Positions 13,311-20,819 of a stretch of 64,000 nt of DNA are shown piece after piece. Position 1 is the stretch's first letter. Every line of letters starts with the position of its first letter. The notes beneath the pieces are model-generated. The model saw only the letters and a program-made list of their open reading frames with translations, was not told the origin of the DNA and ran no database searches. The stretch is taken from contig JAAYBV010000061.1 of NCBI GenBank assembly GCA_012744475.1, forward strand, positions 1 through 64,000. Direction: 5' to 3'. A program made the translations under genes and the position numbers. This DNA comes from Phycisphaerae bacterium. Its GTDB lineage: Bacteria > Planctomycetota > Phycisphaerae > Sedimentisphaerales > Anaerobacaceae.

Positions 13311-14240
13311 TCAATCCGGCAGGACGAGTCGGGCGGTGATGGGGAAGTGGTCGCTGGGATAGCGGCCGTCCACGTTGTCGTGCAGGATTCGGGTTTCGAG
13401 GACCTCGACGCCCGGCTGAACGAAGATGTAGTCGATCTTCTCGCCGGAACGCGTGCCTTTGAAGGCGTGGAACGTGCCGACCTCGGTCGCCTCGGGATGC
13501 AAGAGCCGGAACGAATCGACGAACGGGATGGGCGTCCTGCCGTCGAGGTCCAGGTCGCCCTTGAGGTAGCGGACCGCAGGGTTGGATTCGCCCGCGTTGA
13601 AGTCGCCCGAGACGATCACGGGGTCGGGGTGCTTGCGGTCGCGGATGCGCTGGGCCAGCAGCACCGCGCTGTTGGCGCGCGAAGGCTGCGATTGGTGGTC
13701 GAAATGGGTGTTGAAATGATAGAAGGCCTTGCCCGAGGGCTTGTGGATGAACCGGCCCCAGGTGCAGACGCGTGTGATCCTGTTGCCCCACGTCATCGAG
13801 CCGGGAACCTCGGGCGTGTCGGACAGCCAGAACGTTCCGGCCTCGGCCAGCAGAAGACGGTCGGTGCGATATAGGATGCCGGAGTATTCGCCTTTGGTCT
13901 TGCCGTCTTCGCGGCCGACGCCGATCTCGGCGTACACCGGCAGCGCCTCGCGGATAGCGTCGATCTGGAACCGCAGCGCCTCCTGCAACCCGATCACGTC
14001 GCACTGGTTCCGCTCGATCACTTCGCAGACCTGCTGCCTGCGGTTCTCCCAGCGGTCCGGCCCATCGTCGGCGGTCCCATAGCGGATGTTGAAACTCATC
14101 ACATGCAGCTCATTCTTGCTGTCGCCGGCCTCGGCCGCAGCGCAACGACTGGCGGACCAGACCAGGCTCGCAAGCAGAGCGATCGAAAGAACGGTGCGGC
14201 GTGACATTCCACGAGTCTGTGACATGGCATTCGAGTGCAT
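13311..14240 (-). CDS. secreted endonuclease/exonuclease/phosphatase-fold hydrolase
   Basis: The 309-residue protein has an N-terminal signal sequence (SRRTVLSIALLASLVWSASRCAAAE) and an EEP domain. Visible catalytic motifs are VMSFNIRYG, IGLQEA, IVSGDFNAGESN and the closing YPSDHFPI, so the Asp/His/Asn set is complete. Family members hydrolyse phosphodiesters in DNA, phospholipids or sugar phosphates. Without a close match I cannot choose, but export makes an extracellular phosphodiesterase likely. GGAGGAACTC gives a strong ribosome site at ATG 14240. It is the last gene of a four-gene minus-strand run with larE, a nucleotidyltransferase and a small protein; larE ends 25 bp before it starts. 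Confidence 0.85.
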   Translation of the reverse strand: MHSNAMSQTRGMSRRTVLSIALLASLVWSASRCAAAEAGDSKNELHVMSFNIRYGTADDGPDRWENRRQQVCEVIERNQCDVIGLQEALRFQIDAIREALPVYAEIGVGREDGKTKGEYSGILYRTDRLLLAEAGTFWLSDTPEVPGSMTWGNRITRVCTWGRFIHKPSGKAFYHFNTHFDHQSQPSRANSAVLLAQRIRDRKHPDPVIVSGDFNAGESNPAVRYLKGDLDLDGRTPIPFVDSFRLLHPEATEVGTFHAFKGTRSGEKIDYIFVQPGVEVLETRILHDNVDGRYPSDHFPITARLVLPD

Positions 14241-16074: not shown

Positions 16075-17325
16075 CTATTTGCGAACCAGCAGCTCCGCGT
16101 TGTCCACCCACATCACGAAGAACGGCCGGTCCGCACCCCGCTTCTTCATGTAGATCAGAAAGGGGCGGTTGAACAGGAAGTCTCGGGGTGTGGCGGCAAT
16201 GGCCACGCGTGCTTCGCTCTCGAGCACCGCGCCGGATCGATCCAACCGGAATTCGATCGTTTGCATGGCCTCGACGATGGGCATGCTCACGTTGGCCACT
16301 GTCTTGCCAATGAGTTCGGCGAATCGGTGGTCGATGCGCCAGAACATCTCGGGCACGCGCAGGTCGTCGTTCCCTTGAAACCATCGGGCGTGGCTGTAGT
16401 CTCTCTGCTTGCCGAACTCTTCCATGCCGCGTTGAATATGTTCGTACGTTTCGGCCAGCGAACCTTTCGGCTCGACCACCGCGACGACCACCTGGTAGGG
16501 CTGGCTGTGCCGGGACAGGTCGAGCGCATATTCCTTCATTCGTTCGTAGGGCCGATTCGGGTCGTCCCAACCCACATAGAGGACCTCCACCTGCTCGCGA
16601 ATGTCCTCATATCGCGACAGGAAGGCCTGCCAAAGGCCGAAGCCAGCCACGAGCGTTTCGACGCGCTGCGACTCAGTGAAGGTGAACCCTTCGTCGAGCT
16701 GGCGGAAGGGATACCGGAAGGGCACGTTGGCCGTCAGGTAGGAATAGGCCAGTATGCCGCGCATGTCTTTGAGATCGTTGAAATCGGGCAGTTCGCGCCG
16801 AGGGAACCTGGCGCCCATTCCCTTCTCGATTCGTTTTACGATTCCGTCGTGCGTCCATCCGCCGCTGGCGTAGTACGAGCCGGGTTCGAGATCGCCGGCG
16901 CGATGTGGGGCCTTGTTCAGACGGTCGGCAAGTTCCTCCGCGCCGACGACATCGAGTGGGGCGCCGATCACGTTGTCGCGAATCTCGTTCCAGGCCAACT
17001 GGAACGACGAGCACCAGATGACGTTCTTGCTGCCGGGGCAAAGGCTGTCGAGCGTCGGGACGATCACCGTCCGCTCAAGCAATCCGGAACTGGCGGAGAA
17101 GGTTCTGGTTTTGGCAGCATACTCTCTTCGTTGTGCCAAATAGGATCCCAACCCCGTCCACCAGAAGATGGCGCCTGCCAACGCCAGAACGACGGCCACC
17201 GCCAAGACCGGACGCCAGTGACGATTAGTTCCGGCGGAGGATTCCTGCGGCGTGTTGGGCGTCTCCTGCGATTCTATGGGATCTCTCCCTTGATCATCCC
17301 GTTCGTAGTGCGCCCGTAAAGGCAT
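16075..17325 (-). CDS. membrane-anchored serpin-like protein with shortened reactive loop
   Basis: The 416-residue protein has a cytoplasmic head, one transmembrane segment (about 38-60, RPVLAVAVVLALAGAIFWW) and a large exported domain. FLFNRPFLIYM at 383-393 fits the PROSITE serpin signature pattern position by position, and the next part, RPFFVMWVDNAEL, matches the last serpin strands. NVIWCSSFQLAWNEI near 100-115 resembles serpin helix A/B, and AVLESEARVAIAAT resembles the hinge. Only about 19 residues separate AVLES from FNRPF, against about 30 in alpha-1-antitrypsin, so the reactive centre loop is short and inhibition seems doubtful. The first 8-9 codons come from a dispersed repeat arm (17300-17325), so the true start may be elsewhere. 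The serpin call is my inference and needs structure prediction. Confidence 0.55.
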   Translation of the reverse strand: MPLRAHYERDDQGRDPIESQETPNTPQESSAGTNRHWRPVLAVAVVLALAGAIFWWTGLGSYLAQRREYAAKTRTFSASSGLLERTVIVPTLDSLCPGSKNVIWCSSFQLAWNEIRDNVIGAPLDVVGAEELADRLNKAPHRAGDLEPGSYYASGGWTHDGIVKRIEKGMGARFPRRELPDFNDLKDMRGILAYSYLTANVPFRYPFRQLDEGFTFTESQRVETLVAGFGLWQAFLSRYEDIREQVEVLYVGWDDPNRPYERMKEYALDLSRHSQPYQVVVAVVEPKGSLAETYEHIQRGMEEFGKQRDYSHARWFQGNDDLRVPEMFWRIDHRFAELIGKTVANVSMPIVEAMQTIEFRLDRSGAVLESEARVAIAATPRDFLFNRPFLIYMKKRGADRPFFVMWVDNAELLVRK

Positions 17326-17366: not shown

Positions 17367-17438
17367 AGCCGATGGAGAGATTTGAACTCTCAACCCCGGC
17401 TTTACGAAAGCCGTGCTCTACCGTTGAGCTACATCGGC
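17367..17438 (-). tRNA. tRNA-Thr (anticodon CGT)
   Basis: The minus strand folds as a full cloverleaf: acceptor GCCGATG/CATCGGC, D arm with AGCTCAACGGTAGAGC, anticodon arm CGGCT-TTCGTAA-AGCCG, T arm with TTCAAAT. The anticodon CGT reads ACG (Thr). Discriminator base is U and CCA is not encoded. It has its own consensus promoter. Confidence 0.95.
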
Positions 17439-20245: not shown

Positions 20246-20689
20246 CTATTGGGCGTCGAGGGCTTCGAGGTCGGCGGCGTCTTTGAGCCGGCCGGTGGCT
20301 TTCTTGTTGGCGATGAAGTCGTCACGGCTGATGAAGTGGACGGGGATGTCACCATAGCGGCCGGGAACCTTGTCGGCGTCGGCCTTCTCCCACGAGACGC
20401 CCGTCAGCGACGTAATGAGATCGACGCGGGTCGGAGGCACGCCCAGTTGGATGACGTTCCTCGGTTTGGTGAAATCATGGGCGGATACAGTCAGCGACTC
20501 GAATCCAAGTTCGCCGAGGCTGGCGAGGATTCGCTCGGCGTTCTCGCGTGTGGGACGGATGAACAGATCGATGTCGCCTGTCAGGTGCGGCGCACCGTGG
20601 AAGGCCAGGGCGTAGCCGCCGACGACGATGAATTCAATCTTGTGCCTGTTGAACAATGCGAGCAGTTCTTTGAAGTCGCTGGTCTCCAT
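20246..20689 (-). CDS. nucleotidyltransferase-fold protein paired with a small gene
   Basis: The 147-residue protein has the minimal Pol-beta core: FIVVGGYALAFHGAPHLTGD with Gly-Gly, then DIDLFIRP carrying the Asp-x-Asp, and RVDLITS with the third Asp. It ends DFIANKKATGRLKDAADLEAL, a common tail in the 'DFKELL...VVGGYA' family. Start is taken at ATG 20689, since the sequence resembles family members from METSDFKELL on; ATG 20710 is an alternative. It overlaps the upstream 61-residue gene by about 56 bases. Such pairs recur across bacteria and are suspected toxin-antitoxin or modification systems. No biochemical role is known to me. Confidence 0.75.
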   Translation of the reverse strand: METSDFKELLALFNRHKIEFIVVGGYALAFHGAPHLTGDIDLFIRPTRENAERILASLGELGFESLTVSAHDFTKPRNVIQLGVPPTRVDLITSLTGVSWEKADADKVPGRYGDIPVHFISRDDFIANKKATGRLKDAADLEALDAQ

Positions 20690-20819
20690 ACCACTCGTGC
20701 CGCAGCTCATCGACCGCGTCGAGGCGTTCTTCAGGCGGGCGGGTGAGCCAGTAGCGAAGGTTCTCCTTCACCTCATCGTATTCGTCCATGTGATACAGCT
20801 TGACCACCTTGCGATTCAT
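20634..20819 (-). CDS. 61-residue partner of the nucleotidyltransferase
   Basis: The product is short and charged, starting MNRKVVKLYHMDEYDEVKE and containing NLRYWLTRPPEERLDAVDEL and RLQRTARIVQ. The 'YWLTRPPEER..AVD.LR' core recurs in small proteins encoded just before nucleotidyltransferase genes. ATG 20819 is used; the in-frame GTG at 20855 lies upstream of the -10 box. TACAAT ends six bases before this ATG, so the message is probably leaderless, as at hicA. The overlap with the next gene implies coupled translation. Confidence 0.75.
   Translation of the reverse strand: MNRKVVKLYHMDEYDEVKENLRYWLTRPPEERLDAVDELRHEWYGDQRLQRTARIVQQAQD

Follow-up and report, generated by a model that had tools for sequence, protein, structure and literature searches.

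A membrane-anchored, highly divergent serpin homologue of a Phycisphaerae bacterium that is probably not a protease trap

Serpins are known above all as protease inhibitors of the blood. Does a serpin-like domain held at the membrane of a Phycisphaerae bacterium still work as a protease inhibitor, or has the fold been put to another use? An open reading frame on the minus strand of the window, by which we mean the whole stretch of 64,000 nucleotides analyzed here, raises this question. The answer that we favor, and consider likely, is that the frame encodes a membrane-anchored extracytoplasmic serpin homologue, reduced and re-engineered, which most likely does not trap proteases and would act as a binding or sensing module.

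The gene, its anchor and its kinship to serpins

The features of the locus are as follows (residue numbers refer to the 416-residue protein).

16075–17325, minus strand: open reading frame of 416 amino acids with ATG at 17325, encoding the divergent, membrane-anchored serpin-fold protein
17152–17208, minus strand: N-terminal transmembrane helix, approximately residues 40–58 (hydropathy; helix 40–71 in the AlphaFold2 model)
16078–17100, minus strand: predicted serpin-fold domain, residues 76–416 (AlphaFold2 model, Foldseek and VIA-align matches, family profile)
16981–17025, minus strand: NVIWCSSFQLAWNEI, residues 101–115, s6B/helix B motif, counterpart of canonical GNLFFSPYSISTALAM (register set by eye)
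16261–16263, minus strand: Gln355, aligned with shutter residue His334 of serpins and 10 residues N-terminal to the hinge Gly (alignment of family and canonical serpins)
16195–16239, minus strand: hinge and proximal reactive loop RSGAVLESEARVAIA, residues 363–377, modeled as strand 4A
16165–16194, minus strand: distal loop ATPRDFLFNR, residues 378–387, between s4A and s4B
16147–16179, minus strand: serpin C-terminal signature FLFNRPFLIYM, residues 383–393
16087–16125, minus strand: strand 5B and C-terminal PFFVMWVDNAELL, residues 401–413 (P401 and W406 in 52/52 family members)

Both motifs from which a first-pass annotation had proposed a serpin relationship, FLFNRPFLIYM and NVIWCSSFQLAWNEI, are present in this frame, directly upstream of which lies a tRNA-Thr gene (17367–17438, minus strand). 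The frame is no chance one, because it belongs to a conserved family and because its dN/dS is 0.21 against each of two relatives (L002 and L003; 355 codons, residue 61 onward); it is a real, intact gene under purifying selection. The transmembrane helix that had been placed before the domain was likewise recovered, by hydropathy (after correcting positions for the 7 in-frame residues ahead of the ATG) and as a modeled helix, and is followed by a domain of approximately 340 residues. From lipoprotein-type relatives we infer a topology with a short cytoplasmic N-terminal tail and the domain outside. Elsewhere on the minus strand of the window, 13311–14240 and 20246–20710 hold an endonuclease/exonuclease/phosphatase family protein and a nucleotidyltransferase match below cut-off, and the gene order around the frame is partly common to near relatives.

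Kinship to serpins emerged from the family rather than from the single sequence. The window protein alone matched no Pfam family, and a phmmer search of the PDB returned phosphatases first (E = 0.019 and 0.021) and plasminogen activator inhibitor PAI-1 at E = 0.46; the phosphatase relation (E = 0.019) was dropped, as it is absent from the profile searches of the PDB. We collected 61 family frames (identical domains counted once), retaining 52 whose domains are near-complete and excluding 9 fragments. A 22-member profile found PAI-1 at E = 7.7e-5, and the 52-member profile found it as the best match at E = 8.2e-7, followed by alpha-2-antiplasmin (0.0024) and antitrypsin (0.018), with C1 inhibitor also matched. 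The larger profile had 61 PDB matches at E≤1. Of the best 60, an adenovirus protein (E = 0.33) is clearly no serpin, and a second entry is titled a “superinfection exclusion protein” (vaccinia K2), which we take to be a serpin; the rest are named serpins or serpin peptides. The HMM search suggested by the annotation thus failed with one sequence and succeeded with the family profile.

The Pfam Serpin family (PF00079) was matched at E≤1 by 5 of 22 members (best 7.5e-4), at E≤0.01 by 9 of 52 (best 4e-6), and at E≤0.1 by 7 of 10 members scanned in detail; the match of L011 covers profile positions 180–364 of 370. None of the 52 reached the Pfam gathering score (best 26.7 versus 27 bits), none matched an NCBIfam family, and hhalign paired the family with canonical serpins of related genomes at a probability of 7.9% (29 canonical sequences) or 21–28% (10 canonical sequences). 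The C-terminal (D/N)RPF signature is present, with P388 in 52/52 members, F389 in 51/52 and D or N at position 386 in 47/52. Homology of the family to known serpins is well supported by the family profile and the PF00079 matches. The family is a new and highly divergent branch of the superfamily in which the core of the mechanism has changed. Literature searches found nothing on serpins of Phycisphaerae. Among the papers listed for planctomycete serpins, judged by title and opening lines of the abstract, none deals with this family, and none of those listed for a serpin fold uses that phrase.

The predicted fold

The AlphaFold2 model, built with 23 aligned family members, has a pLDDT of 85.6 and a pTM of 0.77. 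The best 50 of 515 Foldseek matches to this model are all serpins or a serpin-containing complex (best E = 1.5e-10; the vaccinia K2 complex among them is presumably a serpin complex), with low to modest TM-scores of 0.27–0.52. With VIA-align, the 50 matches listed are all serpins (Z = 14.6–12.8), many of them titled as cleaved, with an rmsd of 4.5–5.3 Å over 244–255 residues in all but two and sequence identities of 9–13%. Most of these alignments span model residues ∼90–379 and leave the residues outside that range unaddressed; two extend past the loop to residues 412–413, those with ovalbumin (6kga, rmsd 9.7 Å) and an antitrypsin trimer (3t1p, 8.5 Å). Together these comparisons support well a serpin three-sheet fold for the modeled domain. 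Such modeling and comparison had been proposed in the annotation as a check, and the outcome it had named as contrary, a fold lacking the three-sheet core, did not appear.

Compared with the serpin superfamily (PF00079), the model keeps the order hB, hC, s2A, s3A, s4C/s3C, s1B–s3B, s2C, s6A, s5A, loop, s4B, s5B, and the family keeps the hinge Gly in register and the C-terminal signature; it differs from the superfamily in its low identity, its scores below the Pfam gathering value, its membrane anchor, and its hinge, shutter and breach. The model is also smaller. As a control, a canonical serpin (L105, hinge EEGTEAAAAT) was modeled by the identical pipeline from a 4-row alignment, with low confidence (pLDDT 60.9). 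By DSSP, the stretch from hC to s2A comprises 12 residues in the window model versus 29 in the control (no hD), that from s2A to s3A 32 versus 63 (one helix and no s1A), and that from s6A to s5A 13 versus 33 (no hI). Helix D, strand 1A, one of helices E and F, and helix I are therefore missing from the window model, where the names of elements were assigned by their order in the two models.

Reactive loop, shutter and breach

The annotation had described the protein as lacking a full reactive loop, with a distance from hinge to signature some 11 residues shorter than in alpha-1-antitrypsin. This figure is wrong, because the hinge Gly (G365) and the signature Pro (P388) lie 23 residues apart, versus 25 in PAI-1 (phmmer alignment) and 25–30 in the 28 canonical serpins of relatives that could be measured (the 29th, L059, is interrupted by a run of N and was left out here but counted in the residue and charge tallies). 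Alpha-1-antitrypsin also has 25. The loop is thus approximately 2 residues below PAI-1 and 2 to 7 below the canonical relatives, too small a deficit to call it incomplete. The same short loop was to be sought in homologues: it recurs with 23 residues in 20/52 members, within a range that reaches 34.

What has changed is the composition of the hinge. The inhibitory hinge P17–P9 reads ExGTEAAAA (PMC8233489, accessible part), and the window protein has RSGAVLESE at this place; the family as a whole has (R/E)xGAxLxSE instead of EEGTEAAAA, which in the form (EE/EQ)GTEAAAA is found in 27/29 canonical serpins of relatives. Residues P12–P9 are all small in 0/52 members, compared with AAAA in 27/29 canonical relatives. 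P14 is A, V, I or M in 52/52 members and never Thr or Ser, P12 is L, V or I in 48/52, and P10 is Ser or Ala in 52/52. In the portion of PMC7782431 available, PAI-1 mutants in hinge residues P14–P8 are reported to act predominantly as substrates.

The shutter and breach are replaced as well. At the position of His334, Gln occupies 51/52 members versus His in 29/29 canonical relatives; at that of Asn186 (s3A), 52/52 members have A, S, G or C, mostly Ala or Ser, versus Asn in 28/29; the breach Trp (W194) is Phe in 49/52; and in the column of Ser56, aligned by eye, 36/52 members have F and 2 have S. The counts for the canonical set are partly circular, because the pattern used to find it required GT at P15–P14, and hence the Thr at P14, and N...W in s3A. 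The family thus lacks the Ser56, Asn186 and His334 set of inhibitory serpins, positions described in the available part of PMC8198886 as highly conserved shutter contacts.

The same genome encodes two canonical serpins (G000:C2 and G000:C60), which match PF00079 in full with 421 and 378 bits. Both have retained the GTEAAAAT hinge and a shutter His, unlike the window protein. The second of these (G000:C60:14147–15256; L103:602–3772) is the C-terminal domain, residues 683–1052, of a 1056-residue frame with a long N-terminal ankyrin-repeat array, an ankyrin–serpin fusion.

Among characterized serpins, PAI-1 (SERPINE1) is the closest comparison. It is the best sequence match, it has itself Gln at the shutter His position (profile alignment), its loop is of similar length, and its hinge NESGTVASSS resembles DRSGAVLESE of the window protein. 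It differs in being a soluble inhibitor with small P12–P9 residues and the full helix set, and it has Trp at the breach. The Streptomyces group U serpins, for which the accessible part of PMC8233489 suggests a possibly noninhibitory role, deviate in breach and shutter as the window family does, whereas their similarity to serpins is reported to be strong (E<10e-10) and many have a canonical hinge. Beyond its C-terminal portion, the window family is too dissimilar to be placed dependably in a serpin phylogeny with the prokaryotic groups S, T and U of that paper.

A non-inhibitory function, which the first-pass annotation had suggested, is probable for the family on these sequence grounds, since the replaced hinge, shutter and breach, taken with what is available of PMC8198886, PMC8233489 and PMC7782431, make it the likeliest reading. 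The spring-loading residues (hinge P14–P9, shutter Asn/His and breach Trp) have given way to other conserved residues. In our proposal, the protein would be a stable serpin-fold scaffold at the membrane that binds a ligand or partner, or senses cleavage of its own loop. Beyond topology, it is this non-inhibition, the binding or sensing role and a ligand that we infer.

Possible functions, distribution and architectures

A special form of this proposal, not exclusive of it, is that the protein is locked in the relaxed state, its loop forming strand 4A from folding onward without ever being metastable. We regard this as a tentative possibility. In the window model, s5A (348–362) is followed by a strand (365–377) at the place of strand 4A, and the VIA-align matches to cleaved antitrypsin end at model residue 379 (chain residue 358); however, the loop of the canonical control was likewise modeled as a strand after s5A (E366–376, E379–390), so that the insertion seen for the window protein is by itself no evidence, and the idea that it proves permanent insertion was dropped. 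The bulky P12 and the Ser or Ala at P10 are in keeping with a permanently relaxed form, as is the Gln shared with PAI-1, the serpin that becomes latent spontaneously (PMC7782431, available part). A further argument, the alternation of uncharged and charged residues across P14–P4, was also discarded as proof: in the family, charged residues occupy 2/312 even and 117/312 odd positions, and canonical serpins show the same pattern (1/174 and 48/174). Because the alternation is kept as in inhibitory serpins, competence for insertion may be retained. The literature search found nothing on latent loop insertion in AlphaFold models of serpins.

It seems to us decidedly unlikely that the window protein has kept an inhibitory function and, despite its unusual hinge, protects the envelope as a protease trap tethered to the membrane. 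A loop length near that of PAI-1 and the nearly uncharged even positions, which would allow the strand to insert, are compatible with inhibition. The family also co-occurs with canonical serpins, which are present in 12/14 family-bearing versus 19/47 other genomes (p = 0.005, 61 genomes) and, among genomes of at least 4 Mb, in 11/12 versus 4/11 (p = 0.009), an association confounded by the larger size of family-bearing genomes (median 5.55 versus 2.8 Mb). Against inhibition stand the altered P14 and P12–P9 residues and the replaced shutter and breach. The nominal P1′ is Pro in 15/35 short-loop members, and most serine proteases cleave poorly before Pro; the distal loop, with Pro380 in 31/52 and Arg381 in 29/52, shows partial conservation rather than hypervariability. 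Part of the hE–s1A–hF region is absent from the model, and PAI-1 without hF and the hF–s3A loop is a substrate with undetectable inhibition, according to the accessible part of PMC7782431.

Relatives occur in 14/61 genomes from the genus, family and order of this bacterium, in 24/298 of the class and in 22/392 of the phylum (one by a weak partial match alone); the own genome is included each time and the three sets overlap. Other phyla were covered by a pattern scan of genome contigs that reaches close relatives. It found 26 loci, 25 of them, by the titles of their records, in Sedimentisphaerales, Phycisphaerales, Phycisphaerae, Pirellulales, Brocadiia or Planctomycetota; the 26th (L030:198–1364) lies on a contig of an Armatimonadetes bin, a transfer or binning error. 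No family member occurs in 36 viral stretches. A 128-kb uncultivated viral contig does carry a serpin coding region, within a 1370-residue open frame that extends past both ends of the segment analyzed (L104:1–4110).

Upstream of the domain, family members have a single transmembrane helix, a lipoprotein-type signal or four to five transmembrane helices. By a crude rule, which misses lipoboxes visible by eye, 41 of the 52 members have a hydrophobic segment and 5 a lipobox (46/52 with one or the other), leaving 6 with neither. We scanned the architecture of 10 frames, most of them picked for long extensions, and two of them (L085:880–2511 and L089:1492–3552; best Pfam E = 1.6e-11 and 4.2e-12) also encode regions 2 and 4 of an ECF sigma factor in frame with the domain. 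With sigma factor, hydrophobic segment and serpin-fold domain in a single frame, these are candidate membrane-tethered sigma factors, a combination on which the literature search found nothing. Among the other eight, L093 has a DUF1559 N-terminus (L029 weakly so), L087 has DUF2950, and five have no matches. HEAT repeats follow the serpin-fold domain in L118, and two family genes adjoin in each of L018 and L029. Across 27 loci, the most frequent neighbor clusters were the family's own (20) and one seen 6 times, mostly in near relatives with shared gene order, and a sulfatase-like cluster was seen 3 times; there is no widely conserved neighbor gene that points to a ligand. The varied anchors and fusions and the lack of a recurrent neighbor make the domain look like a portable extracytoplasmic module, which, where it follows an ECF sigma factor, would be the outside sensor of a signaling protein.

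A bolder extension, which we think rather doubtful, is a serpin lineage without metastability, whose domains fold straight to the relaxed, loop-inserted form as sensor or binding modules, also on membrane-tethered ECF sigma factors, and which possibly goes back to a time before the suicide-inhibitor mechanism or has given it up altogether. The family would make it possible to test directly whether a serpin fold can do without metastability. A conserved set of Planctomycetota serpin-fold proteins, with the parts of the spring replaced, tethered to the membrane and in part fused to transcription factors, would widen the known uses of the fold.

That the window gene is a decaying serpin pseudogene without function is highly improbable. 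For this copy the dN/dS estimate largely rules it out, the frame is intact and conservation over 52 members is strong; a genus-mate and a family-mate do, however, carry shortened copies. Those copies comprise a 194-residue frame corresponding to residues 287–415 (L010/L037) and a 117-residue frame corresponding to 376–415 (L014/L042). A 114-residue frame (L040) and a copy split into two overlapping frames (L038) are further reduced forms, and together the shortened and split copies suggest repeated loss of the gene in relatives.
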